From the NCBI GenBank assembly GCA_015178975.1, contig WHVD01000001.1:2604001-2668000 (forward strand): a stretch of 64,000 bases of DNA. Direction: 5' to 3'. Positions 6,206 to 59,539 of the stretch are shown here, in pieces; the first letter of the stretch is position 1; each line of letters starts with the position of its first letter. A program made the position numbers and the translations under genes. Origin of the DNA: Hysterangium stoloniferum (taxonomy: Eukaryota > Basidiomycota > Agaricomycetes > Hysterangiales > Hysterangiaceae). The notes beneath the pieces were generated by a model. The model did not search any database, had not been told where the DNA came from, and saw nothing but the letters and a program-made list of their open reading frames with translations.

Positions 6206-9200
6206 GGATTTGGGGTGTCAGAGACTTTAAAATAGATGAAAATAAATTTGACTTGTATGATTTCAAAAAATGAGCGTGATATCGGAAATAGCGGAAGTGT
6301 CGGAAACTGAAACAGAAAGAAAAAACGGAAGAGTCAGAGTGATGATAAAGGTCCAGGTTGTTTGGATAAGCCGTGTGGAAATCAGTAACAATTTCCATAG
6401 CATGTCCTAGTTCCATGGCCAATATCCATGAAGTTTCCTCATCGGTACCTTCATAACCTGCCCATTTGACTAAATAGAGCAATTTACAAGTACGTCAGCG
6501 ATTGTCGATTTTAGAATCCAAAATTTCGGAAACTTCAAATTCGGGTTCTCCGTCAATAATGACCGGAGGGGACGGAGGTTGAATACGTTCCGGGATGTTG
6601 TTAGGAACACAGGGTTCTAACATGGAAACGTGGAAAACGGGATGAACTGCTCACATACTATCGGGAAGTTGGAGAGTCCATGAGAGTGAACCGGCTTGTG
6701 CTATAATTTCAAAAGGTCCTAAGAATTTCTCAGCGAGTTTTTTAGAAGGTCGGGTAGTACGGAAGAATTGAGCTTTTACAAAAACCTGATCACCGATTTT
6801 AAAATTAGGAGGCGGGATCCTGTTTTTGTCCGCAGAATGATGATAATATTCCTGTGCGGAAGAAATAGCTTTCCGAAGTTCTTGATGTAATTCGTCGAGG
6901 TCGGTAATAAATTCTTGAGCACGGACAGAAGCCAAATCTCGTTCGGGATGTACGGTGAGATTTGGATTATAGCCTTTGTTGGTGAAGAAAGGAGATACGC
7001 TGGTAGTTGCATTCGGAAAGTTATTGTAGGCGAATTCTGCGATCGAGAGAAGGGATTTCCAGTTGTCCTGTTGATAATTGCAATAGATGCAGAGGTATTG
7101 TTCCAATGTTTGATTTACACGTTCTGTTTGTCCATCACCTTCCGGGTGATATCCCGAGGTGAAGTGTAATTTCATGTCGAGGGCTTTTCCGAGAGCCTGG
7201 AAGAAATGGGAGACGAACTTGGAGCCTCGATCGGAAGTTACGTGAGATGGAACTCCGTGTTTGGAAAATACGTGAATAATGAAAAGTTCTGCTAATTGTA
7301 AGGATGTGATTGTATCATGAGTGGGTATGAAAATGCCTTGTTTCGAGAATTGATCCACAACAACTAGAATGGATGTAAAGCCTTCAGAAGTCGGGAGTTG
7401 TTCGATAAAATCCATGGAAATTGAGTTCCAGGGCTTTTCTGGTATCGGAAGTTGCTTGAGAAGGCTGTATGGCTTATGCCTCTGGGTTTTGGAGTGTAAG
7501 CAGGTAGTGCATGACTTACAGAACTGGGTTACGAAATCTCGGAGGTTGGGCCAAGTGTATTCTCTACGGATTAAACTGAGAGTATTGTTAATGCCGTAAT
7601 GTCCGGAAATTGGATGATCATGTTTATACTGAAGTATGCGGAGTCGGAGATTGTTGGAATCTGGAACGTAGATACGTCCATCGAGACGGATAAAACCTTG
7701 AGAGTCTTGTGACCATCGGGGTTGGTCCGGATTATCAGGAACTTCTAGGTGTGGCTTGAGAGCTGGGTCGGAAGTGAGTGCGGAAAGGATATCTTGATGT
7801 AATTGCTCAATGTCCATAATCATGATGCTACGCATAATTGGATAGTAGAGGGAAGTTGCTCAGATAGATGCAGAAAGTTGTTGCATTGTAAAAACCAGTT
7901 TCAAGTTATGTGGATTAACAACAGCATAGTTACTTTCCCCCTCTTTAGGATAGACATCCCATCGTCGAGTCATGGCATCTGGTTTTCCACCAAGATGTCC
8001 GGGTCGGAAACGGATAATCATATTGAAAGCAGAGAGGAATTCAGACCAGCGGGTTAAAAGTTTAGTGGTAGAAAAATATTCGAGATTTTTTTGATCGGTA
8101 ACAATGTCAACGGGAGTTGCGGAACCTTCGAGATAATGGCACCAATGTTTGAAAGCTTCTAAAATAGCCAAAAGTTCCTTGTCATGAACGTCCTAGTTGA
8201 GTTCGGACACTGAAAGTGTCCGAGAGAGAAACACGACCAGATGAATTTCACCGTCGGAATCTTGAATGGAAAGAATCGTGGCAATTGCATAATCGGAAGC
8301 ATCGGTTTCCACAATAATCGGAACATCAGGTTTCCAATGGGAGAGAATCGGGGCGGAAGTGAAAGCATTTTTTAAAGTCTGGAAGGCGGAGTGGCATTTG
8401 TCGTCAAAGACCCATGGTTGAGGTTTACGGGTAAGACGAGTGAGCGGTACTGTAATATCCGAGTAGTTCCGAATAAAACGACGGTAAAAGTTGGCGAAAC
8501 CTAAAAATGACTGAATATCCTTGACTTTCCGTGGTTCGGGCCAATCACAGACAACTTGAACCCGGGTTTCATCCATACAGAGACCATCAGGTCCGATAAT
8601 GAAACCTAAGTATTCAATAGAATCCATGTCAAAGTAGCATTTTTTACTGTTGGCGAAAAGACCGTTTTTATGGAGTCTTCAGAAGACTTCACGGACTTGT
8701 TTGTCGTGGAAAGCGGGATCCTCGGAAAATACCAAAATGTCGTCCAAATAGACTATGACACATACATCAAGCATGTCGGAAAATATATCATTAACAAAAT
8801 GTTGAAAAGCGGAAGGGGCGTTGGTAAGGCCGAACGGCATAACCAACCATTCAAAGGATCCATAGCGAGTTCGAAAAGTGGTTTTCCATTCATCGCCCTC
8901 GGCAATTCGGACCAAATGATAGGCGTGTTTGAGGTCTATTTTGGTGTAAATCTGAGCTTTCCGTGGGGCATCAAGTAAATCAGTAACGAGTGGAAGTGGA
9001 TACTTATCTTTCCGCATGATGGAATTTAATCCTCTGAAATCGACACAGAGTCGAAGGGAGCCATCCTTCTTATGGACGAAAAGGACGGGTGCTCCATACA
9101 GAGACTTTGAGGGATGGATAAAACCTATCGACAGATGTTCATCCAGGAACTCCCGAATAGACGAAAGTTCCGATTGGGATAACGGGTAAATAGGTCCTAA

Positions 9201-11246
9201 CGGAGGGTTTGAACCAGGCTCAATATCGATTTTTAAGTCGTAGGGCCTATGTGGTGCAAGCCTGTCAGCTTTTTGCTTACTGAAAATGTCTGCAAAATCA
9301 TGGTATTTTTCAGGAACTCCTTCCAGGTCGGCTTTTAGCTTGGATAATTCTGGAGTTGCAAAACGTCCAGATGCTTCATCAACTTTTAAGCTGATCGAAA
9401 AACACTGCGAACCATCCAGTTTACTCGCCCTAACAAATGCCAAAGTGTTGATGAGAGAGATTTTTGGGGGCACAGAGGTTTCGGTAGAAGCTGGAGGTGC
9501 CGTAAATGCCGAAAAGGCATTGGCCGGAAGAGACGCTGCAGGAGGAACCGAAGTGTCGGGAATCCGGAAATTAATACTGCCCAATACCCAGTCAATCAAC
9601 GGATTATATCGGGTGAGCCAGTTGTATCCAAGAACTACCAAACAGCTAGAGTCCAACTGTGTTACGAAAAAAGTAACCGTCTGGGATGTTCCACAAGGGA
9701 ACCGGATAGACATGTTGCAGGCTTGGGTAATTGCCGTATTGCTAGTGCCGTCAAACAGACGCAAGGAAATTGTGGGAACAGAATGGAGTTTCAGATTATG
9801 TTTCGAGGCAAAGGTGGTATCTACAAAACAGTGTGTGGAGCCGGAATCTATCAGAGCTCGGAACACTAAATTTCCAAGAAAGTCAGAAACGAGTTTTACA
9901 AATAATGAATTGGGATTAGAGAGAGCGGACGCGTTGAGACGGATAACCTCAGAAACACAGAGAGAGTCAACGCAACCCTCTGTCCATGCAGATTCCGGAG
10001 GGTTGCTTACTCTTTTTTCGACTCCGTGGCGGGTTTTTCCTTAGATGTTGTAGTCGTAGTGGAAGTTGCCACGCGAGCCTTGGAAGAGTTATATTTAACG
10101 GTACAGTCGGAAACCTTGTGTCCGCCTTTCCCACAGAAAAGGCAGAGGTTGTTGTCCATACGTCATTGTTTCTCCTTCGGGGTGAGTTTACCGTCGGTGC
10201 CCAACAAATGGGAAATGTCGGGTTTGTCGGAAGTTGACTGTTTTTCCTTGTTGGATTTCTTGTCTTTCTTCTGGTCGGAGGTTGATTTGCCAGTATTCGT
10301 GCCAGAGTTGCATTGCCGGTGTTATTGCCTGTGTTGTTGCCAGAAGACTTGCTAGTCGACGCCTTGTTATTCTGAGAATGTTCCGTCGGATTCTCTCGAG
10401 AGACCTTGGCTTTTTGTTCCCAATAACGGGCATCGGATGTTTGAGCTTTAATCCACATGAGTTGGAGAGTTTTCGGCTTTCCATCTATGCAGATTTCATC
10501 TTTGAGGCGTGACGGAAGTCCCATATAGAAATGGTGTCTGAGGGTGGAATCGTCCCATCCACATCGTGTGGCGAGAGTATTGAACTTGATGAGATAATCG
10601 GAAACTCGTTGGTTATCCTTCATTTTGAGCATCATTAATTCATTTTCCGCTTCACCGGATTGATCGTAAGGTCTGAAATTAGTTTCCAGTTCTTCCACAA
10701 AAGTGTCCCAGTCGTCGAGCCATACAGGTGTCTCGTCAGATATTCCAGATAGTCTGGGTTCGAACCAATCTTGAGCGGTATCCTTGAGATAAGAGAGCGC
10801 AAAATTAACTTTTCGACTGTCGGATTTAAATGCGGAGGGTCGATCTCGGAAACTGAAATGGCATTGAAGAAGGAAATTCTTCAATTTTTTCGGATTCTTG
10901 CTGGTAAATGGTTTGGGTTCTTTGACTCCGGTGCGGGATGATTCTTTACTATCCTCAGCGGATTTCAAGTAGTCAGCGAATTTCACAATGGAGTTGATGA
11001 ACAACATTTCAGTCGGTTCATTGGAAGATTTCTTTTTCGATGTCTCCGGCTGATCTTCTGCTGGGGAACATTGGTGTCCTTTGTTACCTTGGTCACCTCC
11101 TCGGTAACTTCTTCGACCGAAGCTGATGTTGTCGGCTGAAAAGGGGTTTTGGGTTGAGTGGTGTAAAGTTGCAACGGGGATTGAAGTTGGGATGGTCCTT
11201 CGGCAGCTTTGCGTTTGGGACCCATGATGAGCAAGTCGCAGAGTTC

Positions 11247-13859: not shown

Positions 13860-15089
13860 AAAGACCATTTATTTGATCAATTTGCCTGCATATACCTCCC
13901 TCTGGATTTCGAAGGGTGCATTTTCCATTGCCTAATGTGCATGAGAACCCCTTTTTATTGCAGCATGTGATGGACACTAAAGTAAAGGTAATTTGGGTGA
14001 GTACAAGACATTTTGTAATGTGATGTTAATGGGCTTGCTGCCATTTTGCACTTGTATGTGCATATTGCCAATTCCCATGGCTAAGAACTCTGTTTTATCG
14101 GCGGCACAAATTTTCCGCAGTGGGTGTATTGTTTTGAAGCTTGAGAATAAGTTTAGATATGGGGACATATGAGAATTGGCCCCAGAGTCCCATACTTCGA
14201 CGATTTTTGTGCCATTGTTGTTAGTTTCGTCATTTGTTAAAATTCTCATGTTTAGTGAGCTAGCAAATGCATATGACTCTTCATTTGCGATATTTGCATT
14301 CCTGTTGTTGCCTGTATTGTATCCCCTTTGATTTGTGCTATTGCACCTTGAACACTTGCGCATATATCTTGGTTTTTGTCCCTCCTTACCCCCACCTTTG
14401 ACCCAACAATCGGCTATGACATGTCTGATCTGTCTGCAATTTGGATTGAACCATGTTAGATTTCGATTTTGGGTTGTAGAGGTATTTCTCAAGTTCCAGG
14501 AGTTACTACTGGGGACTGTACTTTGTCACTGGTCCTTAGTATTGGCTAGGAGGACTTGATTGTTGTTATTAGTTGAGTTTGGGGCTTTCTTTGATTTTCT
14601 ACGCTTATATTCGGCTTTGATCATTGTTATTAGGCTTGTTGGGGTTAAAACAGTCCCAGTGTCTGTTGCAGAAGTCATTACCACATTCATCATGACATCA
14701 TAAGAGTCCGGGAGTGACCTCAACAAAATGTTGAAGAAATTGTTATCTTCTATCTTCATTCCCATGCTTGCTAATTGCTGATGCATTTCTAGTAGGGTGT
14801 CAAGGTGGGAATGGACATCTTCCCCTTCTTTGAATTTTAGAGCACACATTCTGCACTGCAAATCGACTTGGGCCATTTTTGGCTTTGACTCAAATTCCTG
14901 GCAAACAGCCTCCCATACTTCTCTTGCTGTGCTGAGTCTTTGAAGACTGAGCATAAGATAAGAGAAGGGCCGACTGATAAAAAGATTTGAGCTTTGACTC
15001 GTCCTTCATGTTCAAGGTAGCAATCCAAATGTTCCTCTTGCTTGTCCCTGAGATCTAACTGGTCATTTGTTAATACAGTTCCTGTGACA
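13860..15089 (-). mobile_element. Ty1/copia gag-protease fragment (copia-1 type)
   Basis: On the minus strand, gag occupies about 15089-14530 (motifs REVWEAVCQEFESKPKM and LLRSLPDSYDVMMNVV). It is followed by a zinc-knuckle-like Cys region and aspartic protease (about 14250-13860, WDSGANSHMSPY). The protease part is closely similar to 51778-52206 in the other copia-1 copy. Both ends are cut, by repeat F on the protease side and by the Tc1 element on the gag side. It is broken in a few places. Confidence 0.85.
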
Positions 15090-16443
15090 TACAGTAGGCA
15101 ACAAAACCCCAACATCATACCTTCCAGAAATGCACAGCCACAAGGTACCACATCCTTATTTGGTAAGTCCACATCACACACAAACCAATAGCTCATTGTA
15201 AGGGTTTTGTTGCACACATTTTTAAAGTTCAAAATGGGTCATAGTCACATGACTTTGTTTATAAAGTTCAATAAAGTCATGTGACCACTCTTCCTCAATG
15301 CATATAAGATGAAAGCAACCAGTTGGAATCCCACAATCACCCTACTCACAATGAAAAAGCTCTCCTCCAGCCAAGTCTAACATGTTCTTACTCTACTTGA
15401 CTCTGGCATTTCTGGAGCTCAAATATGTTACCAAACTCATCTCAACAGTACCACCATCAGTCGTATTCACTCTGAGCATCACCCTGACCTCCCCAAATGC
15501 ACTGGTAGCTGTCCTACAAAGCTTACCACAGCCAATATTGCGTATACTAGAATAATAATTTGCATGGGGAAGGTTGATAATGCCACACAGGCAACCAATA
15601 AACTTATAGACATCATCAACACTCCTATTACTTCACAAACAGTGTGTCACCACCTCAAAACCATAGGCATGAGGGCTGTGGTAAAGAGAAAAAGGCCACT
15701 TCTCAAACCTCATTATTAGAAATCTCGATTGGAGTTTGCAGAAAGGCATTTGGAATGGACCCTGGAGGACTGGAAGAGGGTCATATGGTCTGATGAGACT
15801 AAGATTAATAGGCTGGGATCAGATGGAAGGAAATATGTGTGGAAAAATGTGGGTGAGGGGTTAAATGATAGGTTAGTAGAGGGAACAGTCAAGTTTGGAG
15901 GAGAAAACCTGATGATGTGGGGATGCATGGGCTGGGATGGGGTTGGGTTTGCAACCAAAATTGATGGGAGGATAGATGCTGAGCTTTATGTGGAGATCCT
16001 GGATGATGAACTCCAGCAAACCCTCAAATATCATAACAAAACAGTGGCTGACATTGTATTTCAACAAGACAATGACCCCAAACACACCAGCAAAAAGGCC
16101 CAGAAATGGTTCACTGACCATGATGTTACAGTCCTCAAGTGGCCTGCACAATCTCCTGACATGAATCCTATTGAACATATGTGGAATCATGTCAAAAGAA
16201 GCTGGGGGAGTATGAACAGCCTGCAAATAGTGTTCATGAACTGTGGGAGAGGGTGCAGAAGGTGTGGGAAGAGATTCCAAAGGAGGAGTGTCAGAAGCTT
16301 ATTGAGAGTATGCCTAGAAGACTTGCAGCAGTGATTAGAGCAAAGGGGGGCCATACTAAATACTAATTTCTTGTAATAATAGTCTCAAAATAGTGTGCAA
16401 CAAAACCCTTACAATAAGCTATTGGTTTGTGTGATGTGGACGT
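15090..16443 (+). mobile_element. Tc1/mariner DNA transposon
   Basis: Inverted repeats lie at 15168-15219 and 16391-16443 (core gggttttgttgcacac and its complement) and flank a Tc1 transposase. The outermost left sequence, TACAGTAGGCAACAAAACCC at 15090, looks like a true Tc1 end next to a TA target. The matching outer part is missing on the right, where a copia-like LTR begins at 16444. The element therefore seems truncated on the right. It is inserted in the N-terminal part of a copia gag. Confidence 0.8.
15351..16366 (+). pseudogene. Tc1-type DDE transposase, inactivated
   Basis: The reading frame from ATG 15351 gives a helix-turn-helix-like N-terminus and then the catalytic core. The core holds VIWSDETKINRLGSDG (first Asp), VFQQDNDPKHTS (second Asp) and SPDMNPIEHMW (Glu), with 34 residues between the last two: the DD34E pattern of Tc1. 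The C-terminal RLAAVIRAKGGHTKY is typical of the family but lies in a different frame from the core. In-frame stops lie at 15378-15380 and 15717-15719, and a frameshift falls near 16190-16205. Full length would be about 338 residues, normal for Tc1. It would bind the terminal repeats and move the element by cut and paste, but this copy cannot. Confidence 0.85.
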
Positions 16444-25900: not shown

Positions 25901-26460
25901 ATCATCACCAGCAGTTTGTGACTTGAGGTGGATGGTGGTATTCGTCTTGGGACTGATGTGGAATGTCTCATTGTTGGGTCCTGCTCAAATTAAGTCCAGT
26001 AAGTATATGATGACATTAGTCAAATGACGTCGGACAAACCTGGCACAATGCTCTGGGCGAATGATCCCGTCAATAGCAATCCATCCAGCATGAGGGGGCC
26101 ATACTCTGCGAGATCGAGCCCCTTCCCCCTTTCTTCTCACGAGATATGTGGGGTATAGTCCGGATCTTCATTGGCGCCTTTGACATTACCGTCATACATG
26201 GCCGGGAGTTTGTGACTTGGGGCGGAAGGTCGTATTCGCCTTGGGAACAATGTGGGGATGGAATGTCCCAACATTGGGTCCTGCTCAAATCAAGTCAAGT
26301 CAGTATATGATGGCATTAATTAAGCGACGTCGGACAAACCTTGGCCAATGTGCTGGGCGAATGATCCCGTGAACAGCGATCCATCCAGCATAAGGGGGCC
26401 ATACTCTCTAAGGTCGACTGCCTTTCCCTTGTCTTCCCACGAGATACGTGGGGCGGAGTC
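25900..26460 (-). repeat. Tandem duplication of the 3' end of the repeat-protein gene, period about 300 bp
   Basis: Blocks around 25975-26130 and 26276-26440 are direct copies, sharing gggtcctgctcaaat, acgtcggacaaacc, gggcgaatgatcccgt and agggggccatactct. The right copy is the true C-terminus of the gene ending at 26320. The left copy is a decayed duplicate of the same coding 3' end plus downstream sequence, and part of the left flank (25910-25975 against 26210-26275) is duplicated too. Confidence 0.8.
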
Positions 26461-27107
26461 GGGATCAGAATGGGTGCCCTCGACGCTGCCGTCATCCACA
26501 GCGGGTGGGCGATCAGCCGCATTGGTGCCCTCGACTTTACCTTCATCCTCAGCGGGTGCGTGATCAGGCGCGTCGGTGCCCACGACGCTACCGCCATCCA
26601 CAGCGGGTGCATGATCGGCGGCGTCGATGCCCTCGATTTCACCGTCATTCACAGCGGGTGCATGATCAGCCACGTCGGCACCCTTGACGTTCTCGTCATC
26701 TGCAGCGGGGTCGTGATCAGCATCGTCGGTGCCCTCGACGTTCCCGTTATCTGCAGCGGGTGCGTGATCAGCCGCATTGGCGTCCTCGACATTCCCATCA
26801 TCCACAGCCGGTGTCTGCTCACCCGCGTCAGCATTCTCGACGTGCGCATTTTGAAGGCGAGAGTGTGTGAAGTACATGATGGTGCCGAGCAGCGTGAATA
26901 CCAGAGCGATGTGTATCAAGGCAATACACGCACCGCCGATCACTGCAGCATGTCTAGAAAATCATTGTCAAGTATGTTACTATTTGTCACTGCACATAAC
27001 ACTCACCGTTGCTTGAGCCCACGACAGATCGTCCCCTCGATGTGTACATGCAGCGCGTGTGGCAAGTGCGTGACGCAGCTGGGTCTGCCTCCGAATGGCT
27101 TGCTCAT
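26320..27107 (-). CDS. Membrane protein with seven 17-residue acidic repeats
   Basis: The minus-strand model joins 27107-27007 and 26953-26320 across a 53-nt GT-AG intron (donor GTGAGT, acceptor TTCTAG), giving 244 residues. After a short basic N-terminus (MSKPFGG...CRGLKQR) comes one transmembrane helix at about residues 35-62 (core ACIALIHIALVFTLLGTIMY). Seven tandem units of 17 residues follow, for example VEDANAADHAPAADNGN and VEGTNAADRPPAVDDGS: very acidic, Ala/Pro/Asp-rich and encoded by a 51-bp minisatellite. The end (GPLMLDGSLFTGSF) is distinct. A single-pass membrane protein with a disordered acidic tail is inferred; function is unknown. An earlier start is possible because the frame upstream of 27107 stays open. 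The 3' end is duplicated downstream. Confidence 0.6.
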
Positions 27108-32947: not shown

Positions 32948-34334
32948 ATGGACATTGCAGCCATTGTTGTCAAAGTCGCTGGCGATGCCGTTCCATTGCC
33001 TGACTTAAAGAGTGCAGTGACCCTGGTTTTGGAGATTATGAACGTTATAAAGGTAGGTCGTCTGCATCAACATCAGTTTAGGAGCTGATGTGGATCATGA
33101 TTCACAATCACTAGGCAAGCGGGGAGCAAAACGAGAAATTGAATAACCTTGTCCAGACAACTGGACGTCGCCTCGTCGCTTTCCACGATCAGCTGAGGGG
33201 GAAGTGGGAGAATATCCCGGACAATTTCAAAACTATATTGGACGATTATCAGAAGTGAGAACGCGGGACTCACTGAGTAATCGTACTTGATGAATAAATC
33301 GATTTTTTTCAGTGCACTTGAGGATGTTCTTGCGCTTGCACTGTCATACACACCAAGAAAAGGTCTTAAAGCACACTTCGTGTCTTGGATGGGACAACGA
33401 GATACGTCTATCATAAAACTGGAAAGGCGATTGGAAGAAGGGGAGGAAGAGGCAATGGTGCGTGCTGAAAGTGACACTCAGAGTCGTTTGTTATATATAT
33501 TGGCTCTTAGATGTGCATTCTTCTGGATACATCACTAGCCGTCGCTCAACTCGTAGCCGTCGATGATACCAGAATGGACGATATCATCCTTCATTCGTTT
33601 TCGTCGGCCACGGGCAGAGGAAGAAATGGTATTAGTGAACGCGTACGCCCGTTCTGTCATCTCAAAAATCATGTCCGTGGGTTTATCATAATGAGGCAGT
33701 ATTTGATCGATCGAAGGGACTTGCAACTGTTACGCACCTTATCGGTCGCGAACCACAATGATTATGACTATGAAAAGGCAGGAAATCATGGGGTCACCTT
33801 GCGGTGGAGTATCACACTTTGTGAAGCGAAGACTGAAAGTGACGGTAAGCCGGTATTGGTCAAAATGTACGAAGGCGGGAGACCCACTTTGGATGTGAGA
33901 CACAAAAAGGTACGAGCCCCGTTTTCTGGTTTGGATTTCAGAAATTATTTGTAACATATCAAACTTTTGATATAGTTCCAACGCGACCTCACTTCCTATC
34001 AAGACGTGTCGTAAGGATCCAACACATCAGATTAAATAACCCAAGTAGTCCCATCACAATTATGTTCAGGAACCCTAGCATTGCTGCGTTCTTGGGCTAC
34101 AGTAACACGCAAGACAATGGACTTTTCCAAGTTTTCCGTAATCCGGGCATTGAACCTGAGGACGCATGCAAATGGCTCGAACGCACTAGATCAGCTGGAG
34201 TCAGAGAAACCATTTTGGGACTATGGGACATGGTGAATGAAATTACTCGCGGTATTTACAAGCTAACGCGATATATTTTAGAGGGATTCCTACAATGTGA
34301 CGTACTTGGATACCTTCTCTCCCGTAAATGCTGA
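32948..34334 (+). CDS. Four-helix-bundle (MLKL-NTD-like) protein with kinase N-lobe-like segment
   Basis: Seven exons fit: 32948-33052, 33115-33254, 33313-33457, 33511-33642, 33700-33909, 33976-34010 and 34070-34334, totalling 1032 nt and 343 residues, all introns GT-AG (53-66 nt). Residues 1-150 are helical and amphipathic (MDIAAIVVKVAGDAVPLP; GEQNEKLNNLVQTTGRRL; GKWENIPDNFKTILDDY; SIIKLERRLEEGEEEAM), the pattern of the MLKL-type N-terminal four-helix bundle found in many basidiomycete signalling proteins. Residues 205-290 resemble a kinase N-lobe: a VLVKMYEGG strand with a Lys near 229, a helix FQRDLTSYQDV, then NPSIAAFLGYS in the place of HPN-hxxhxG. No HRD or DFG motif is present before the stop. 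A role in membrane-directed or regulated-cell-death signalling is inference. It is duplicated at 42706, where the bundle is six residues longer. Confidence 0.6.
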
Positions 34335-34425
34335 TGTGACAATGTGACATTAGGAATTAGTTGATTTCTGTTTAAACAACGAAATTTTTATTGACCCGCT
34401 GGTTCGTTAATTCGACTGACATAAG

Positions 34426-35010
34426 ATGTCAATCATAACTTTGTTTATTCAGTTTTTCAATCCCGGTGATTTAATTGTCACTGTCACTGACTGTCCTCCC
34501 AATCGCCATCATCTGAAGCTTTTGTACACCGGAACACTGGTCAGCCGTGGCCCCGCATGGTACTACACGAAATGGTATCCCGTTATTTACCCCGATAACT
34601 CTAGGATCAATCCTTCATCAGCAGACTCTATCGTAGACTTATTCGTATACAAAGTGGATTCAGGGTGTCTCGGCACTGCTTTAATGGATGAACAACTTCG
34701 AAGCTCGCACACCATTATTCAATTGGCCAATCCACTACTGGACTTCGAGTTTCTGAGACCAATTGTGGGCTATATCAAGGATGGAGATCTGGGGTCCATC
34801 GCTTTGTGGGACGTGGGCTATCGGGATAAAGTTGCAGGCGATTTTGTAGTGTGTGGGAGTCTACATGAGTGGTTATCTGAAACCCTCGGTATAGAACCCT
34901 TAGTCGAGGTTCGTGTTCATCTCAACGAGCGAGAGTCTAGATATTTAGACGAGGGTGAGAGTGTAACAATACGAGGTGGAAAACCAATGAGAAGGTATTT
35001 TTTAAGCTAG
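34426..35010 (+). CDS. Conserved unknown ORF downstream of the four-helix-bundle gene, copy 1
   Basis: A 194-residue open frame is kept in the duplicate at 44193-44801 with strong protein-level similarity (for example LGTALMDEQLRSSHTIIQLA, ALWDVGYRDKVAGDFVV, SETLGIEPLVEVRV, SVTIRGGKPMRRYF). The N-terminal third differs and includes an intron-like TTTATTCAG acceptor near 34440-34451, so the true exon may start near 34452. It may be a later exon of the upstream gene or a separate gene. A further conserved piece, KAWRAYAPLYIEE-GI with HELMISKHKSLL, follows at 35140-35266. The domain is not recognised. Confidence 0.45.
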   Translation: MSIITLFIQFFNPGDLIVTVTDCPPNRHHLKLLYTGTLVSRGPAWYYTKWYPVIYPDNSRINPSSADSIVDLFVYKVDSGCLGTALMDEQLRSSHTIIQLANPLLDFEFLRPIVGYIKDGDLGSIALWDVGYRDKVAGDFVVCGSLHEWLSETLGIEPLVEVRVHLNERESRYLDEGESVTIRGGKPMRRYFLS

Positions 35011-35339
35011 CACACTGACCCGATAGTTGCTCAGTTTTCTGCCCCATAGATATACCTGTGATATTGACGAAGCCAGTATCGACGATTTCTGCCGGCCCCA
35101 TGTCGATATCGACAAATTCTGCTGGCCCTCCTCTAAACTGCAGAAAGCATGGAGAGCATACGCACCGCTTTACATAGAGGAAAATGGGATCATGGGTATC
35201 CCTCCACACGAGTTGATGATCAGTAAGCACAAAAGTCTTTTGGAAGTGATATTGAACCCTTTGTGACAACAGTAATGCACTAGCAGACAAGAGTAGCCGT
35301 GGAAATGCCTCAGAATTTGTTTGTTTCACTTCCCCATTC

Positions 35340-35990
35340 ATCGAGAGCCTGGCAGAATTCAGTCACTCCGGAGATGTGGAACTGCGTAGCATATTCTTGT
35401 TTGAACCTACTTCTCCACGTTATATTTTTGCCCCCTCGGGGAGACCTGTACTAGACGTGCAGTTGCGTGCTTCTTATGATGCGGAGCCCAGTTGGATAAA
35501 TGATCCTGTGGCCGGACACGGTATTTGAGCGAGACCCGTGAGTGTCGATGTTGTCCTTATTTAATAGTATTAACGTCTTGAATAAGGCTGATACCTTATT
35601 TTCAGCTACCTAGGTGCATATGGGAGGAGGATTAAACTGGGACACGATCAAACCCATCGAACATTTTCCCGTCACGTCTAGCTATATCATTTTGAGATAT
35701 AAAAGCTCTTTATTTATTGGAGCTCTGTACCTCTGCCCATAATTCAATTGTGAACAGAAGATGTAAGAATACGTGAATGTTAATTTTCAAAAATAATGAC
35801 AAAAAAAGTAGTTCTTCGTCGTAACTGTGTGACATCGCGTAAGATGTGCTGGCTTGCGCCCATTCTTCCTCCCAGACTTTCTCGCCTTCCCAGCCCTCGT
35901 CTTTCAGAATCTTTTCGGAGAGAAGCGCCACCACAATGCTTTGACAAAGAAGTATTTCCTCCTGTCTTTCAATGGAAATGAGATTTCACC
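35340..35990 (+). other. 3' part of the duplicated unit, exon-like pieces
   Basis: 35345-35528 reads SGDVELRSIFLFEPTSPRYI and DAEPSWINDPVAGHG. 35580-35700 and 35850-35985 also match the second locus (45100-45730), including FFLPDFLAFPALVFQNLF and HHNALTKKY. The collinear match ends at gaaatgagatttcacc in both loci, which marks the right edge of the segmental duplication. Confidence 0.55.
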
Positions 35991-36390: not shown

Positions 36391-36800
36391 TAGTAATCAA
36401 ACTCTCAAGATTGGTCATAAACGTCTAGAAGATATGGGGGTACGATGGTTTCTTTGAGTAGGAGCGGCGCGAAACAGATATATGGTTACCCTCAAAGTCC
36501 ATGCCATTTTGCATGCGGAGCTCTTTCCAAAGATTCAATGCAGTGTAATGATTGTATGATGATGTTGATGAATTACATTGTGGAGGGCCGGTAGGATTTG
36601 CGATGCCGTGTATACTAGATATACCTACGCTATCGGCGAAGCCAGCATCAAAGATTTCTGCCGGCCCCTCGTCTGAAGTGTGGAAAGCATGGAGAGCATA
36701 AACCACTTTGCATAGAGAAAAATGGGATGAAGGGTCTCTGCACACGAATGATCACTAAGCACAGAAGTCTTTTGGATTAGATCAACAGACATGTGGGAGG
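36390..36800 (+). repeat. Tail block of the UBP-like units plus a copy of the KAWRAY segment
   Basis: The block gagtaggagcggcgcgaaac, ccatgccattttgcatg and ttccaaagattcaa-gcagtgtaatgatt recurs at 41590-41760, 46860-46990, 58605-58680 and 63640-63810. It is followed at 36630-36780 by a shortened copy of the 35060-35240 segment (atcggcgaagccagcatc...agcacagaagtctttt). Confidence 0.7.
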
Positions 36801-42235: not shown

Positions 42236-42705
42236 AGAGATTTCACATTGAAAGGGTTACAAAAATATCACAAGTTCCATCTCGTCCATATGTCTGAAGT
42301 TTTACTCAGAAAGACACAATACTAGCTCCAATTGGGAAAGGACAAGGCGAGACAACTGATCATGGGAATAAGCAAGGCAGAACTGAGCTATCGCTACAAT
42401 GACCTCTGTCAGTTCATGATACCGTTTATCCTTCTCGATAAACCATTTCGTTGAACCACTCATAAGATTGTGCGGCTTTTCTTTTAATGACGAATGATCT
42501 TTCGAATCCCTTGTATTCCAGGAATTCCACTACAGACAAAGTCCACATCGTGATTACGGCCTTTGAATATAAGTATCGCTGTTGAGATGAACACTGCATT
42601 TCCCCTACCGAACTGGCGCTCTATTCTCAGGGCAGAGCTAATAGCAAATACAGCCCTTCGACGTGCTAAAGAGCAGCTTTCTACTAAGATCATCGACCAT
42701 CACTC

Positions 42706-44101
42706 ATGGACATTGCAGCCATTGTTGTCAAAGTCGCTGGCGATGCCGTTCCATTACCGGGTTTACAGAGTGCAGCGACCCTTGTTTTGGAGATTATGAA
42801 CGTTATAAAGGTAGGTCGTCTGCATCAACACCAGTTTAAGAGCTGATGTGGATCATGATTCACAATCACTAGGCAAGCGGGGAGCAAAACGAGAGATTGA
42901 ATAATTTTGTCCAGACCACTGGACGTCGCCTCGTCGCTTTCCACGATCAGCTGAGGGGGAAGTGGGAGAATATCCCGGACAATTTCAAAACTATATTGGA
43001 CGATTATCAGAACTGAGAACTTGAGACTCACTGGGTAACCGTACTTGACTAATAAATCGATTGTTTTCAGTGCACTTGAGGATGTTCTTGTGCTTGCAAG
43101 GTCATACACACCAAGAAAAGGTCTTAAAGCACACGTCGTGTCTTGGATGCGACAACGAGACAGGTCTATCACCAGACTGCAAAGGCGATTGGAAGAAGCG
43201 GAGAAAGAGGCAATGGTACGTGCTGAAAGTGACACTCAGAGTCGTTCGTTATATACTGGCTCTTAGATGTGCATTTTGCTGAATACTTCATTAGCCGTCG
43301 CTCAACTCGTAGCCGTCGATGATACCAGAATGGACGATATCATACGTCAATTACGGGGTATCCTTGATTCGTTTTCATCGCTCACGGTCAGAGGAAGAAA
43401 CGATATTAGTGAACACGTATGCTCGTTTTGTCATTTCAAAGATCATGCCCGTGGGCTTATAGTGGTGTTTGATTCATAGAAGGAATTTCCAAGTGTTACG
43501 GACCATATCTATCGCGAACCATAATCATTATAATGATGAAAAGCCAGGAAATAATAAGGTCGCCTTGCGGTGGAGTGTCAAACTTTGTGAAGCGAAGGCT
43601 GAAAGTGACGGCAACTCGGTATTGGTCAAAATGTACGAAGGCGGGAGACCCACATGGGATTTGAGCTACAAAGAGGTACGAGTTCTGTTTTGGCTGGTTT
43701 GGATTTCAGAAAGTATTTGCAATACATCACACTTTGGATATAGTTCCAACGCGACCTCACTTCCTATCAAGACGTGTGGTAAGAATGAAACACATCAGAT
43801 TAAATAACCCAGTAGTCCAATCGCATTCATGTTCAGGGACCCTAGCATTGCTGAGTTCTTGGGCTACAGCAACGCACAAGACAATGTACTTTTTCAAGTT
43901 TTCCGTAATCCGGGCCCTGAACCTGAGGACGCATGCAAATGGCTCGAACCTACTAGATCATCCGGTGTGAAAGAAACCATTTTGGCACTATGGGACATGG
44001 TGAATGAAATTACGCGCGACATTTACAAGCTAACGCGATATATCTTAGAGGGATTCTTACAATGTGACGCACTTGGATACCTTCTCTCCCGCAAATGCTG
44101 A
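42706..44101 (+). pseudogene. Four-helix-bundle/kinase-like gene, copy 2
   Basis: It is collinear with 32948-34334. Exon 1 (42706-42810) gives MDIAAIVVKVAGDAVPLP. The bundle region reads GEQNEREIE/LNNFVQTTGRRL-type helices and ALEDVLVLARSYTPRKG, with RQLRGILDSFSS (six residues more than copy 1 in this stretch, near 43345-43362). The kinase-like part keeps VLVKMYEGGRPTWD, FQRDLTSYQDVW and DPSIAEFLGYSNAQDNVLF. The clean splice model of copy 1 is not fully preserved, so this copy is probably not expressed in the same form, although individual exons remain open. A paralogue with altered splicing is the alternative. Confidence 0.55.
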
Positions 44102-44192
44102 TTTGACAATGTGACATTAGGAATTAGGGGATTTCTGTTCAAACAACGAAATTTTTATGGACCGGCTTGTTCGTTAATTCGACTAACATCAG

Positions 44193-44801
44193 ATGTCAAA
44201 TGATAACTCTGTCCATTCAGTTTTCATATCCCGGTGCTTCAATTGTCACAGTCCTGCCAATCGCCGCCGTCATCTGAAGCTTGTGTACAGCGGAACACTG
44301 GTCAGCGGTGCCCACCCCAGGGCCTACCAGCCCAGTATTTATCGCGGTCACTCTAGGATTAATCCATCATCACCGGACTCCATCGTAGACTTGTTCGATA
44401 CCAACGTGTATGCATGCTGGCTCGGCACGGCTTTAATGGATCAACAACTTCGAAGATCGCACACCATTTATCAATTGGCCAATCAACTACTGGACTTCGG
44501 GTTTCTGGCACCCCTTCGGGGCTATATCGAGGATGGAGATCTGGGGTCCCTCGCTCTGTGGGACGTGGGCTATCGGGATAAAGTTACAGGCGATTTTGTA
44601 GTGTATGGGAATCTACATGAGTGGTTCTCTGAAACCCTCGGTATAGAACCGTTAGTCGAGGTTCGTGTTGACCTCAACGAGCCAGAGTCTAGATATTTAG
44701 ACGAGGATGAGAGTGTAACAATACGAGGTGGAAAACCAATGAGAAGGTATTTTTCGAGCTGGCACACTGACCCAATTGTTGCTCAGTTTTCTGCCGCGTA
44801 G
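44193..44801 (+). CDS. Conserved unknown ORF, copy 2
   Basis: The 202-residue frame is homologous to 34426-35010 from HLKL-YSGTLVSG on. It keeps PSSPDSIVDLFDTNVYACWL, LGTALMDQQLRRSHTIYQLA, LRGYIEDGDLGSLALWDVGY and ESRYLDEDESVTIRGGKPMR, and it extends seven or eight residues further (SSWHTDPIVAQFSAA). Retention of both frames suggests coding constraint or recent duplication. The frame probably begins at an exon acceptor near 44220. Function is unknown. The KAWRAYAPLYIEETGIKGV segment follows at 44890-45015. Confidence 0.45.
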   Translation: MSNDNSVHSVFISRCFNCHSPANRRRHLKLVYSGTLVSGAHPRAYQPSIYRGHSRINPSSPDSIVDLFDTNVYACWLGTALMDQQLRRSHTIYQLANQLLDFGFLAPLRGYIEDGDLGSLALWDVGYRDKVTGDFVVYGNLHEWFSETLGIEPLVEVRVDLNEPESRYLDEDESVTIRGGKPMRRYFSSWHTDPIVAQFSAA

Positions 44802-45099
44802 ATATACCTATGATATTGGCGAAGGCGGCATCGAAGATTCCTGCCGGCTCAGTGTCTATATCGCAGACTTCGGCCCGTCGTCTGAAGTGAAGAAAGCGTG
44901 GAGAGCATACGCACCGCTATACATAGAGGAAACTGGGATCAAGGGTGTCCTTCCACACGAGTTGATGATCAGTAAGCACAGAAGTCTTTTGGGAATGATA
45001 TTGACCACTTTGTGACCACAGTAAACCACTTTAGGACAACATTAGTTGTGGAAATGCCTCAGAATTTGTTTGTTTCACTTCCCCCTTCAGCAATGTCAG

Positions 45100-45735
45100 A
45101 GCCTGACAGAGTAATCTAGTCACTCCGGAGATGTGGAACCGGGTACCATATTCCTGTTTGAACCTACTTCTCCACGTTATATTTCTGGCCCCTCGGGGGG
45201 ATGTGCAGTTGCGCGCTTCTTATGATGCGGAGCCCAGTTGGATAAATGACCCTGTGTGGCCGGACACGGTATTTGAGCCAGACCCGTAAGCGTTGATGTT
45301 GTCCTTATTTAATAGTATTAACGTCTTGAATAAGGATTGTATGGTATTTTCAGCTATCTAGGTGGATATGGGAGGAGGATTAAACTCGGACACGATCAAA
45401 CCTAGCGAACATTTTCCCGTCACGTCTAGCTATATCATTCTGAGATATAAAAGCTCTTTAGTTACTGGAGCTCTGTGCCTCTGCCCATGATTCAATTGTG
45501 AATAGAAGATGTAAGAATACGTGAATGTTAATTTTCAAAAATAATTACAAAAAAAGTGTGACATCGCGTAACATGTGCTGGAGTCCTGCGACTTGCGCTC
45601 ATTCTTCCTCCCAGACTTTCTCGCATTCCCAGTCTTCGTCTTTCAGAACCTGTTCAGAGAGAAGAAACACCACAATGCTTTGACAAAGAAGTATGTCCTC
45701 CGTTCTTCCAATGGAAATGAGATTTCACCTATTAT
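45100..45735 (+). other. 3' part of the duplicated unit, copy 2
   Basis: It matches 35340-35990 up to gaaatgagatttcacc, with FFLPDFLAFPVFVFQNLF near 45600. Beyond this point the two loci differ, giving the right duplication boundary at 45730. Confidence 0.6.
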
Positions 45736-48922: not shown

Positions 48923-51900
48923 CTTCCCCTCAAGTCGAGTGTTGATAAGACCGAGTTTTGATGTAAAATAGATGAGTTTTGGGCGAGGTAAAGCTTTGGT
49001 GAATATGTCTGCTGTCATATCTTCGGTAGGACAATATGCAAGTGTAATTGTGCCATTCTCCACAATTTCGTATATGAATTTGTATCGTATGTTTATATGC
49101 TTTGTTCGTCCTTCGATATGATAATAGCGGCTTGATTGTCGCAATGGAGTGTGATTGATTTTGTGAATGGATGAAAGACTTCGTTCATGAATTTGCAAAT
49201 CCAGCATGCCTCTTTGATAGCATATGTGGCTGCAACGAATTCGGCCTCAGTGCTAGATAAAGTTAAGAGTCTTTGTTTGTTTTAACTCCAAGAGAATGCT
49301 CCACCATTTAATAGAAAACAATAACCTGACATCAAATGTCAATCTGGTTGTTGTTCCCAATCCACATCTGTATATCCCATTATTCCACTCTCATTTCTTC
49401 CCAATGTTAATTTGAAGTTTCGTGTTCCCTTCAAATATTTTAGTACTCTTTTCGTTGCTTCCCAATGTACTCATCCCAGATTCTCCATAAATTGAGATAG
49501 AATAGAGACTGCGAAAGCAATATCTGATCTTGTACCCATTGTGGCCCACATTAATGAACCAATGGCTTTGCGATAAGGAATGTTCTTCATATTTTCACGT
49601 TCTTTTCGTGTGGTTGGACATTGTTCTTTTGATAATAATGGTTTGGGGTCCATAGGCAGTGTGATTGGGACTGCATCGTGTAAATTGAAACGTTTGATAA
49701 TTAAGTCGATATATGCGGTTTGTCCGAATGAGATTGTATGCGCTTTTATATCGTATTTGACCTCTATGTTCAGTAACCAATGTAATTCACTCTTATCCTT
49801 CATTTTGAAATGTGATTTGAATTGCTCTTTTGTTTGAATTATTCCTTCGTTCGTATTTGCAGTGACGGTGAAATCATCCACAGCTACTGCAATTGTGACA
49901 ATATTGTGTTCCACTCATTTGTAGAATACGGCTGGATTGGATAGTGAGCACGTGAATCCCATTTGATTCATCACCTTGCTGAGTAGCTTGTACCATTCTC
50001 CTCCCGATTGTTTTAAACCGTATAGAGCCTTTTTCAATTTTATTACTTTCGATGGTGGACCTTGAGGAAATCCTGGTGGTTGGTGCATATATACTGTTTC
50101 TGTAAGTTTTGCATTCAAGTATGCATTGTTGACATCCATTTGCTCTATAGGCCAGCCATTCTGGGCTGCTATGCCTGTGATAAGCCTCAGTGAAGCCAAA
50201 CAAACAATTGGAGAAAACGTCTCTTCATAGTCCATCCCAAATACTTGTGTAAAGCCTTGAGCTACTAGTCATGCCTTGTATGTATTGATGTTTCCATTTG
50301 CATTGCGTTTTATTCTTAACATCCATTTAGAACCGACTATATTGATTCCTTCGGGTTTGTCGACAAGTTCCCAGGTGCCTAAATCATGTAAGGCCTTCAA
50401 TTCCTTTAAAAATGCCGGCTTCCACAATGACCAATCGTCTCCTCTCATAGCCTCTTCCACTGTAGCTGGTACACCTTCTTGAATGTTTGCAACCATCCCT
50501 ATCATTTCCAATCTCTCGCTGTCCATCCTGTCTGTAAACTCCATCCATTCCAATGGGCTATATGCATCTGTATACGAAATATTTTTATCGACCATGATTG
50601 GCGGCTCACTTGGACTGTCTCCCCATAAAATTGAGTCTTCATCAAAACCGTTTTCATCTTCTAATATAACACATGTAGCCTTTCTGAATTCTTCTGGTAC
50701 TTGTAGTCTTGGAGAGAATTCGATTTGACTAGAACCTGCGGTACCTTCCCCTTGTCTAAGATGGCGCATATAATCACATGGAAATCTGGTTCTTGAACTT
50801 CATCTCAATTGCTCCTGAGGTAAGGATTCCGTAGTTTCTGGTAGCTCTGGAATGCTAATTTGAGGCAATTCAGGAAATGGTATGTCTGTGGGCATTTGAG
50901 GAAGTATCTTGTATGTTTTGTGTTCTAGATCCTTTCCTGATATGAGTATAGGAACCCCAGCTTGCTTGGGGAATGCCACATTCCGTTCTGCAGTCACGGT
51001 TCATTTTTCTGGCCAATATATGCGGTGTCCTTCACTGTTAAAACTGTACCTGACCCAGTGGCCCTCTTTTGCCTTGGGTCCTAGTTTACCTCCCTCTGGC
51101 TCCATTCTCACATATACAGTTTCTCCCCATTCCGGTAAGTCACTTAGATTCGGCTTCTTGTTATGAACTAGCTTGTATGGTGTTTTTCCATCGAGAGCTG
51201 ATGTTGCTGTTCTATTCTTTAGATATACTGCATGCTGTATGCACTCACCCCATAGAAACTTGGGCAGATTGGCAGTGATGAGCATTGACTGGGTGTGTTC
51301 AACTAATGTTCAATTTAGTCTTTCTGAGACACCATTCTGTTGGGGAGTATCATGAATGGTTAACTGTTGGAGGGTTCCGCGTGAGGATAGATAATCTTTA
51401 AACTCATTGGATGTATATTCGCCTCCATTATCTGATTGTAACTTCTTAATCGCAATGTTCCTTTGTTGATTTAGGAATGCCTCGTATGACTTGTACTTTT
51501 GAAATTCTTCTCCTTTCGCTTTCATCAGGTAGGTTCTTGTTTCCCTTGTGAAATCATCAGTAAATGATATATACCATCTACAACCTCCAATGGTTTGAAC
51601 TTCAGATGGCCCCCATACATCAGTGTGTATCTTTTGGCCTTGAGATTTGGCTCGTTCTGATTTCCGAACTTTTGGGATTGGTTCCTGAGTGATCTTCCCT
51701 TTGATACAGGCTTCGCAAAATTCAATAGGCTTCGAATGATATAATGTAATTCCTTCGATTGTCCCATTTTCGACCATTCACTTCGCAGTAGCTGGTGCTA
51801 TGTGTCCCATACATGTATGCAGCTCGTTTATTGTCATTGTAGTGTAGGCGTCATTTTGTAGATTATTGGTCTCATGGATAATATAGCTTCTTTGATATAG

Positions 51901-52376
51901 ACCATTGATTCGATCGGTTTGCCCGCATATACCTCCCTCTGGATTTCGAAGGGTGCATTTTCCATCTCCAAATGTGCATGAGAACCCCTTTTTATCGTAG
52001 CATGCGATGGACACTAAAGTAAATGCTAATTCAGGTGAGTACAACACATTTTGTAATGAGATGTTAGTGGGCTTGCTGCCATTTTGCACTTGTATGCGCA
52101 TATTGCCAATTCCCGTGGCTAGGAACTCTGTCTTATCGGTGGTGTGAATTTTCCGAGATGGGTCTATTGTTTTGAAGCTTGAGAATAAGCTTATATATGG
52201 GGACATATGAGAATTGGCCCCAGAGTCCCATACTTCACCGATTTTTGTACCATTGTTGCTAGTTTCATCATTTGTTAAAATCCCTGTGTTTAATGAGCTA
52301 GCGAATGCATATGACTCTTTGTTTGCGATGTTTGCATTCCTATTGTTGCCTGTATTGTATCCCCTTTTGTTTGTGC
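48491..52376 (-). mobile_element. Ty1/copia element (copia-1), 5' truncated
   Basis: On the minus strand: part of gag and protease (about 52376-51900; MSPYISLFSSFKTID), integrase (about 51780-51000; ITQEPIPK, WGPSEVQTIGG, QSDNGGEYTSNEF), reverse transcriptase (about 50770-49470; GTWELVDKPEGINIVGSKW, QMDVNNAYLNAKL, VAVDDFTV), RNase H (about 49300-48930; TADIFTKALPRPK) and the 3' LTR (48491-48922). The 5' LTR and most of gag are missing; the left-out end joins a MITE at a shared gctattt. It has several breaks (about six to ten). It is younger than the + strand copia-1 copy, judged by coding similarity. Confidence 0.9.
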
Positions 52377-52884
52377 TATTTAATATTTAGTGAAATATTA
52401 GTGCAATGGCTCCCCTTCATTCAATTCTTCCTTGATTTGCATATAAGCTGGTAGGACTAATACTATATATTGTTTTGTGTATAAATATACCTAAGCTGTG
52501 AGGCTTAATACCATCCTTTGAACAAGTTGTGCCACTTACTGTATGCACACTTGATAGTGAGTAATATAACTTGTTCAAAAGGTAGTATTATGCCTTACAA
52601 CTCAGGTTATGTTTAGATACAATACATAGTATTAATTCCACCAGCGTATATGCAAATATAGAGAGAATTGAATGAAAGGGAACCATTGCAATGATATTTC
52701 ACTGAACATTAAATAGCCTGTCATAAGGGCAAATATATACATATATACATAGATCCATACATTATCATACACATAGAATGCTATTATGCCTTAATTGCCA
52801 CTCATTCTGGAGATATGGCACAATTTGTCTGTGGCAGGATTTTTTTGAAATTCTGAACTCCGCCTTAGGTACTCGGAACAGCTG
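52377..52884 (+). mobile_element. MITE E, copy 2 (left terminus missing)
   Basis: It holds the inner left arm (gctatttaatatttagtg), the unique middle (52470-52632) and the complete right arm, inverted (ttccaccagcgtatatgc through the end CGGAACAGCTG), with TA at 52885. It shows the empty site of the family D LTR. Its left end is lost at the junction with the copia element, where both share gctatt. Confidence 0.75.
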
Positions 52885-53825: not shown

Positions 53826-56800
53826 CTTTCCTACAATGGCATTATTAAAGGTATGCCAAACTCTACCCGCCAGCCTCCTCCCAAATGTGATTTTTGCATC
53901 CTTGGCAAACAGACCAAAAACTCAGTACCAAAAGTGCGAGCACAGGGAGATGGGCATAAAGCCACAAGACGATTGGGAAAAATCTGGGTGGACTTGGCAG
54001 GACCAAACGATGTAGTGTCCCGTACAGGATCATTGTATATAATGAATATTGTAGATGACTACTCAAGTTTCCCATGGTCTATTCCAAAACTGGGAGCGTG
54101 CACGAGAAATAGAAATTGGGTTGAAAGTTGGCATCTACAGGACAGACAATGGAGAACTAAAAACCAACAAAATGCATCAATGGCTGGAATCTCGAGGTAC
54201 TACACATGAGTTCACTGCACCTTATACCTCAGCACACATAGGCCGCATTGAACAGATGCACCACACATTAATGGGAAAAGCCCAGACTATGCGATCATAT
54301 GCAGGATTACCCCCCCAATTTGGGAAGAATTTTACCTCACTGCAGCGCATGTACATGGTAAGACAACGACTCAACAATCCAAAGGAAGAACCCCTTGGGA
54401 ACTATGGTATGGCCACAAACCAGATCTCTCTTACCTGTGAGAGGCCAGCTGCCAGGAATTCATCCTCATACTCAACAAAAATAATCCAAAAATATATGAA
54501 CGATCAATAGAATGTATCCTACTTGGATACGAACCAAATGCAAAGGCATACCGCTGTTATGACCCAAAAACCAAGCAGATATACACTTCTTACCATGTAA
54601 AATTCCTTGAAAGCCATGATGGTCACCTACGCACATCTCAACCCACTATGTCTGCTTTACCACCGCCTAACATCAAACTCCCACAGATAGTCATGCCACC
54701 CCTCCAACCATCAGAGATCGACGAGTCAAAACCCATCATGCCTATACTGCAACCTAATGATATTGCACCTCCACTTTTACCACCTGATGATGCCGTGCCT
54801 CCACAGTTGGCCATCCCAGATGATGCCCCAGCACCTATTCCTGATGACAACATTCGGCGCTCTACTCAGATAGCAGCACAAGACCCTAATCATCCTTCAC
54901 AGCTGGAGACGGCAGTCCAGGACGCCATAGCAAGTGCTACACGTGTCTGTGCCCAACAGGAACAATGCCGCCTAGACATCCAGCAGTTACACAACGCTGA
55001 CCTCCCAAATGCTAACGTTGCTGATGAGCTGTGCACCATGCTCAACAGTTTTCGTCATCCAGGAGAGTCTGACGCCGATGTATTAACTATCTCAAACTTG
55101 CCTGTGTCCAATGGCCCCACACCATACGAAACAGACCCTCTTACATGGGACGAAGCCAAAAACTCCCCCCAAAAGGAAGCATGGCACACCAGCTATCAAG
55201 AGGAACTTCAATCGCTGAAAGAGATGGGAGTATATGAACTCGTACCACCTTCAGAAATCCCCATTGGTACCAAGGTCCACAAAGGGAAGCCAATTTTTCA
55301 TATTACAAGGAATGCTGATGGCGAAATCTACCATCAGAAAATGAGGCTCATTTTTAAAGGTTTTGAGCAAGTATATGGACGTGACTATGATAAAACAACC
55401 TCACCTACAGCTCGTATGGAATCCTGGCGCATTTTACTGCACTTAGCAGCAAATTTAGGGTGGGACGCCCAACAAATTGATGTCAAGATGGCCTTCTTAT
55501 ATGGCCTGCTTCCAGATGACGAAATACAATTCATGTTCCAGCCTGAAGGCTTTGAGGAGCCAGGAAACGAATCGTGGGTCTGGAAAGTCGTACAAGGACT
55601 ATATGGTATGAAACAAGCCAGTTGCATTTGGAATCGCACAATGCATGAGAAAACGCTCAGCTGGGGTTTTATTCCATTGCCCAGTGAACCCTGCATCTAT
55701 TATCGAAAAACCTCTTTAGGAATCATCATTGTGGCTGACCATGTCGATGATTTCGTATCTATTGCCTCTACTAAGGCTGAAAACGACCGATTCAAACAAC
55801 AAATGAAATCAGCCTGGAGCATATCAGATCTCGGTACCGTCAGTTTTGTTGTTGGCATCGCTGTCAAGTGGGACAGACCAAACTCTCTTGTTAAGTTGTC
55901 CCAGACTGCTCTCATTGATCGCATCATATCTCAGTTCAGACAAGTGGACTCTGCCCCAGTGTCTATTCCTATGGTCCCAGGCCTAAAGCTACAGCGCATC
56001 CTCTGTTCTTCCCTCCCTCCAAACGACCAATCTCACCTCTCCAAGCTCCCTTACCGCTCACTTGGAGGCTCGCTCCTATACCTCGCCATCTCCACTCGTC
56101 CCGACATATCCTATGCTGTACAACAGCTCTCCCAATATCTCGACTGCTATTCATACGAGCATTGGACTGCCACCATTCGGGTTGTCCAGTATCTCAAAGG
56201 CACGAAAAACCTACAACTACACTTGGGGGGCACCAATCCTATCACTCTATTGGGTCACAGTGACTCTGATTGGGCAAATTGCCTCGACACCTGTAGAAGT
56301 GTGGGGGGGTTCACGTTCTCTCTAGGCTCAGGTGTCGTATCCTGGAGTGCCCGCAAACAAAAAACCATCGCAGCTTCATCATGTGAAGCTGAATATATTG
56401 CAGCCTTCTCTGCTGCAAAAGAAAACTCCTGGCTACGATCGGTGCTTCGAGGTATCAACATACCTTTCAACAAACCTACAACCATTCATTGTGATAACAA
56501 CGCCGCCATCTGTCTCTCAGAGGACCACTTCTAAATGATCGAGTGAAGCATATAGATATTAAGTATCATTTTCTACGAGAGGGTGCCATATCCGGAGAAC
56601 TAAAACTTAAGTATATCCACACCAAAGACAACCTATCAGATATATTCACAAAAGCACTCGAGGGCCCACAATTCACACGTCTTCGCGGATTCTTAGGCCG
56701 AAAATAGGCACGAACGACATAGGAGTACTGCGGTGAGGAGGAGTGTTGAGGAAGAGAGACACCGCATATACTTCTATATGCACTAGGGACGATCGAATCC

Positions 56801-59375: not shown

Positions 59376-59539
59376 TGAACCTGGCTCCTCATAGCACGAA
59401 GATTAAGTTACGGACCCGTTTCGACTTACTCCGTTCCCTCCCACTCTTCGAAGCAGTCAGAGGATACATTCAAACCTCCCGAGTGGGAATAGCGAGTTAA
59501 AAAATACCCAGAATAAACTCAAACATAAAGATGATTCGT

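Follow-up and report, generated by a model that had tools for sequence, protein, structure and literature searches.

What kind of gene begins at position 32948 of the window, the 64,000-nucleotide stretch of Hysterangium stoloniferum DNA analysed here (C1:2604001-2668000 of a 111-Mb assembly)? A preliminary description had likened it to a miniature MLKL, i.e., a stand-alone cell-death-type helical bundle with half a kinase, encoded by seven exons and stopping before any HRD or DFG motif. We recovered the seven exons on the forward strand (32948-33052, 33115-33254, 33313-33457, 33511-33642, 33700-33909, 33976-34010 and 34070-34334), their introns having GT..AG ends both in the window and in most covering paralogs; with the 57-nt intron at 33643-33699 spliced out, the exons total 1032 nt and close with a single terminal TGA (34332-34334). 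The VLVKMYEG strand and the FLGYS motif are present, and HRD is absent, as described. The gene end was misplaced: this TGA sits inside a 52-nt GT..AG intron (intron 7, 34302-34353, GTACTT..TAG), within TGCTGATGTGAC, which we read as a branch-point-like stretch of that intron. The reading frame runs on through six further exons, to 35681, which are common to distant paralogs (46-59% identity to the window over exon 9), and one clean copy, L023, encodes a 675-aa product that continues for ~340 residues past the point of the intronic TGA. Because the frame continues past this stop into shared exons, the gene is neither truncated nor stand-alone, and the comparison with a miniature MLKL loses its support. 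At a probability of roughly one half, the sequence features suggest instead a NOD-less, NLR-like receptor family combining a death-type effector with a hypervariable sensor.

Splice sites shared with aligned copies and distant paralogs, together with numerous indels whose length is a multiple of three, exclude a chance chain of open reading frames, so that the earlier call of a real gene was correct. In an alignment of 17 copies, the 52-nt intron is followed by a 16-codon exon (exon 8, 34354-34401), a 51-nt intron and a 542-nt exon (exon 9, 34453-34994), and in 41 of 53 copies the ends of both introns flanking exon 8, and the next donor, are canonical. Spliced alignment of the L023 protein to six distant paralogs found these downstream introns again, in unchanged phase, in L030, L032 and L033, and yielded partly different or doubtful models for L031, L034 and L035. 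A 13-exon gene spanning 32948-35681, as predicted from these genomic alignments, is settled to a good degree. Its fourth intron (33643-33699, in frame) is GT..AG in 18 of 19 spanning copies and has a diversity of 0.185 (vs. 0.094 for exon 4 and 0.161 for exon 5); five aligned copies carry a 1-nt insertion inside it, and the one TAG seen in many listed paralog matches is its last codon in the aligned copies. Three other models were rejected: a direct splice from 34323 to 34453, which gave stops, an exon end at 34302, which was one base off, and a 12-exon model in which the intron within the old exon 4 was taken as coding, making some copies look broken. The diversity analyses ran on the 12-exon numbering, and residues were renumbered by -19 to the 13-exon model.

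Along the window copy (all on the forward strand), exons 1-3 encode a constrained, putatively helical N-terminal region (aa 1-130) with splice sites kept in most paralogs, and exon 4 (33511-33642), delimited by paralog alignment, encodes the end of this region and a linker. Exons 5-7 (33700-33909, 33976-34010 and 34070-34301) hold the kinase N-lobe-like segment (VLVK, FLGYS, LFQVF) and the helix that follows it. A diversified module comes next, with exon 9 as its central part: hypervariable codons lie at 34387, 34393 and 34396 in exon 8, around 34456-34459, 34540-34597, 34648-34657, 34756-34771 and 34906-34930 in exon 9, and around 35099-35120 in the diversified exon 10 (35050-35222). An in-frame TAG in exon 11 (35273-35318) at 35281-35283, where L012 and L013 have TGG, ends the window protein after 590 open codons; further on, exon 12 (35363-35537), followed by exon 13 (35606-35681), lacks 2 nt present in aligned relatives, which breaks its frame. 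Judging from these differences, the window copy is probably damaged at its C-terminus, and it may still make a 590-aa protein.

The family is large and clustered. The first 30 nt of the gene occur in 40 exact genome copies, 21 of them on C1 (1.83-2.65 Mb) and six on C113. Genome searches returned 102 first-look candidates for exon 2 (best 40 scored, at least 40 matches), 220 for exons 4-5 (best 150 scored) and 185 for exon 9 (best 150 scored, at least 151 matches). The 150 exon 9 matches listed correspond to 132 places when merged within 1200 nt, and 76 of the 150 lie within about 1 Mb of C1 (1.80-2.81 Mb); 74 span exon 9 fully, of which 43 are on C1 and 67 contain no stop. Gene number is uncertain because some of the small contigs resemble alternative haplotypes, C145, C198 and C278 having equal scores. 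Across 20 sampled stretches that hold exact copies of those first 30 nt, sequences agree at about 84-95% in the main pieces around 32.6-36.0 kb. We scored a set of 20 copies, defined as blastn chains that cover 1500 nt or more of the gene, which leaves out shorter fragments as well as L027, which is the window's own second copy. Under the 13-exon model all frames are open in two of them, L023 and L017, the latter with a 277-nt insertion in intron 3. Each of the other 18 is broken or incomplete, owing to frameshifts, stops, altered splice sites, large gaps or insertions of 143-441 nt; some, at least L010 and L014_1631, are also cut by the end of the sampled stretch.

Several observations concern the surroundings of these copies. 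The L017 insertion lies at the 3' end of intron 3, is flanked by an apparent short target duplication and is possibly a solo LTR or small transposon, and in L019 (5135-5339) exon 1 and its upstream stretch are tandemly duplicated 204 nt apart, giving two identical starts. The window itself holds two near-full family copies plus debris: the second copy (42625-45448, forward strand) is 86.4% identical in DNA and is disrupted by a frameshift and altered splice sites, and fragments lie at 58837-59383 (81% identical to 33589-34158) and 36656-36776 (81% identical to 35117-35244). The gene cluster is embedded in retroelements, with long Ty3- and Ty1/copia-like frames recognised by eye at 6651-11244 (-), 54441-56534 (+), 50269-52386 (-), 13977-14525 (-) and 1548-2129 (+). 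A 204-aa frame at 15720-16334 (+) resembles, by eye, a Tc1/mariner-type transposase, and another at 26320-26961 (-) has a hydrophobic start and degenerate ADHAPAVDDGNVEG-type repeats.

Selection differs sharply along the gene. With broken copies left in, the 20-copy set gave a piN/piS of 0.43 for aa 1-130, 0.58 for the old exon 4 and 0.42 for the lobe-like exons 6-7, then 0.9, 1.0, 0.8 and 1.11 for exons 8, 9, 10 and 11, and 0.35 for the constrained exon 12. For exons 8-9 a larger set was drawn, comprising the window and 52 further stretches picked from stop-free matches spanning exon 9 and therefore biased to open copies; both exons are open and of the right length in 45 of these 53. Among the 45, diversity at codon positions 1, 2 and 3 was 0.212, 0.184 and 0.255 in exon 8 and 0.157, 0.132 and 0.135 in exon 9, where position 3 shows about the same diversity as positions 1 and 2, vs. 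0.095, 0.128 and 0.092 in three introns. Diversity exceeded 0.4 at 69 of 590 exon sites and 2 of 131 intron sites (Fisher P 7e-5). Thirty of 196 codons account for half the replacements, with a dN/dS of 3.15 (0.61 in the remaining codons), a figure to be taken as an upper view since it is set against the overall dS and the 30 codons were chosen by replacement count. The overall dN/dS of exons 8+9 is 1.02 (0.83-1.25), not above 1, and the claim of diversification rests for that reason on heterogeneity among codons and on the intron comparison. At aa 499-505 (13-exon numbering) replacement counts alternate (11, 0, 27.5, 5, 29, 4, 28), which fits one face of a strand; this holds for some runs and not throughout, as autocorrelation at lag 2 (0.33) is hardly above that at lag 1 (0.30). 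All replacement figures are parsimony counts on one tree, which gene conversion would distort. By these counting methods the family has a hypervariable, diversified region, a feature of fungal NLRs, and this region would be the putative sensor.

The same figures bear on a different account, which we consider unlikely, namely that of a dying tandem array, once functional and now consisting mainly of pseudogenes, whose diversity stems from relaxed constraint and gene conversion instead of ligand recognition. Both the 18 broken or incomplete copies out of 20 and the near-neutral overall ratio of exons 8+9 are what such an array would show, and given the former, part of the diversity may indeed be relaxed constraint. 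Relaxation alone, however, should neither make codon positions 1-2 more variable than introns within those copies nor gather so many replacements (half of the total) into 30 codons at the ratio given above, and it sits poorly with the constraint that persists in the N-terminus and exon 12, with the fully open L023 and with the stop-free state of most listed matches that span exon 9.

Turning to the N-terminal part of the putative receptor, the cell-death-type bundle of the preliminary description is still plausible in that helices are predicted in the right order, but this prediction is of very low confidence and no profile matched, an outcome that the preliminary description had named as counting against its reading. 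An AlphaFold model from two sequences (pLDDT 38.5) was all-helical, with an extra first helix followed by four long ones (low-confidence AF2 helices at 3-13, 20-36, 42-65, 71-92 and 99-122); its query retained 19 intron-4 residues, located after the bundle. This order equals that described for basidiomycete MLKL-like domains in the available portion of PMC9815663. Two of the four core helices have hydrophobic moments that under 5% of shuffles attain (2.3% and 0.5%), against 9.3% and 5.7% for the other two. Profile comparison of eight members (alignment A1) gave no match to MLKL_N (PF22215), BLASTP against the MLKL_N protein of the same genome gave none either, and hhalign against that protein returned an E of 0.32 and a probability of 0.2%. 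MLKL homology of the N-terminus is unproven. Elsewhere in the genome, L029 (1348-3330) and L037 (1369-3447), on C104, are long open frames of at least 661 and 693 codons, of which L029 matches MLKL_N (PF22215, 30 bits) and L037 shares 69% identity with L029 in that region; their C-terminal part differs from that of the window family.

The identification of the VLVK segment as a kinase N-lobe is likewise a weak one. In an hhalign comparison of seven members with four TKL kinase N-lobes from the same genome, the C-helix, beta4 and beta5 aligned in register (E 0.0018, vs. 0.46 for the control module A5), so that a degenerate kinase-like lobe is plausible, but the probability was 15%. A full kinase domain, which the preliminary description had named as counting against its model, was not found: PF00069 and PF07714 matched neither the window protein nor the seven members of alignment A4. 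Nor does the rest of the protein look like a complete pseudokinase, as no kinase profile matched over it and HRD is absent; DFG tripeptides occur at 444 and 550 of L023, in other surroundings. More generally, Pfam and PDB searches of bundle, lobe and module, using single sequences and profiles, gave no convincing match, and for the module none at all in Pfam, the window-protein query carrying 19 intron-4 residues and an exon-11 acceptor that was later dropped. The AlphaFold model of exon 9 was uninformative (pLDDT 34.3). A tblastn search with the L023 protein at three TKL kinase neighbourhoods (L100-L102) found no convincing match. By eye, L101 (C509) and L102 (C105) are TKL-like kinases: TPR-like repeats precede the kinase in one, and the other carries two kinase-like domains in tandem, the first apparently degenerate.

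The N-terminal part is exchangeable within the family, again a feature of fungal NLRs. The window, L023, L030 and L032 have the helical type, and L034 fits neither type clearly. In L033 and L035 (C2 and C533) and, by eye, in L031 (C98), the module is preceded by exons of an alpha/beta hydrolase where the helical part would otherwise be, with the motifs IVAIHGLDG, then HSFGG (AHSFGG, the nucleophile serine motif, in L033 and L035, HSVGG in L031), then GVIFMGTPHQG; we take this hydrolase to be SesB-like on the strength of these motifs. With hand-joined exons, Abhydrolase_6 matched above the cut-off in L035 (6.6e-6) and below it in L033 (0.002); a PDB search with the L033 hydrolase gave no match, and neither did a profile search with the poorly spliced L031 fragment. 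The two types lie about 14 kb apart on C98 (L030 and L031), and a seven-sequence tree does not separate them (0.70-0.84 at the relevant nodes). A genome search with the hydrolase exon gave at least 150 matches. When the best 38 were compared with 38 NACHT matches, 15 had NACHT 665-736 bases downstream, four had the family module instead, none had both and 19 had neither among the matches listed; adding two lower hydrolase matches, entered for their NACHT neighbours, makes it NACHT in 17 of 40. No NACHT match was found within 2.5 kb of the four SesB places that precede the family module. In NLRs, a swap of HeLo-like for SesB-like domains on near-identical NODs is documented (PMC4986451, in the part available).

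This exchange weighs against a second alternative, that of a diversified signalling scaffold comparable to expanded TKL families, with no cell-death role and with the helices serving as a coiled-coil adaptor. TKL kinases have expanded in the basidiomycete Laccaria bicolor (PMC2838846, as far as its available text goes), the present genome has 147 PF07714 matches, and the helices are tied to MLKL_N by no profile. Against this, HRD is absent, and members in which a SesB-like hydrolase stands where the helices would be, with relatives of that hydrolase preceding NACHT, follow an NLR effector pattern, which makes the scaffold quite improbable. The family is like that Laccaria expansion, so far as the latter is described there, in being a basidiomycete lineage-specific expansion of kinase-related genes, and unlike it in that the kinase part is degenerate and unrecognised by Pfam kinase models and that diversification lies outside it.

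Retention of intron 7 is hardly probable as the source of a true 343-aa isoform (bundle plus N-lobe, made alongside the long receptor as a decoy or free executioner): intron retention is common in fungi and 32 of 53 aligned copies have the TGA of the seven-exon reading at the same place in the tail (34302-34334), but the other 21 have a different length (11, of which 10 are out of frame), an earlier stop (six) or no stop (four), and a branch-point would conserve the stretch anyway.

In the receptor reading, the exon 8-11 module would act as a sensor binding variable nonself or modified-self ligands, the kinase-like segment would be a scaffold or switch, and ligand binding would free the N-terminal effector, which in the helical subtype may be a HeLo/MLKL-like bundle able to oligomerise and permeabilise membranes. 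The overall action would resemble that of an NLR without a NOD, its role most likely being allorecognition (somatic incompatibility) or antiviral and antibacterial defence. Somewhat more tentatively, and a little short of even odds, the family may represent a NOD-less class of fungal receptors with a degenerate kinase lobe at the NOD position, swappable front effectors and a non-repeat hypervariable recognition module.

Fungal NLRs have exchangeable HeLo-like/BaMLKL or SesB-like N-termini (PMC4986451, PMC9815663, in the portions available), and the family shares with them, as they are depicted there, swappable N-terminal effectors, large variable repertoires and positively selected sensor positions. 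Unlike them, it has no P-loop pattern in the three members checked and no Pfam match in the window protein, and hence no NACHT, WD40, ANK or TPR; a kinase-lobe-like segment occupies the switch position, and a module of no assigned family would serve as the sensor. As in an MLKL-style architecture, a putatively helical N-terminus is followed by a kinase-lobe-like segment without HRD, whereas MLKL_N and kinase profiles have no detectable match and the long hypervariable C-terminal module and the clustered many-copy family are unlike MLKL-style proteins. The features tested do not establish membership of MLKL, the kinases or NLRs; the mode of action is most likely NLR-like. Fusions of HELL with a (pseudo)kinase have been mentioned before (PMC12881547, in its available part). 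We found no description of such a family, module or hypervariability in the open-access literature searched, a scope that leaves out most subscription papers and all bioRxiv preprints.

If this reading is true, basidiomycete receptor repertoires evolve on a non-NLR chassis with the same effectors, and an MLKL-style architecture would be linked to recognition, beyond execution alone. Somatic incompatibility in basidiomycetes has been called poorly understood (PMC8229728, in the section available), and the ~1-Mb cluster would then be a candidate for this process in mushrooms, a group in which little is known of the recognition genes. Since the hypervariable codons mark out which residues to follow in population data, the idea is directly testable.
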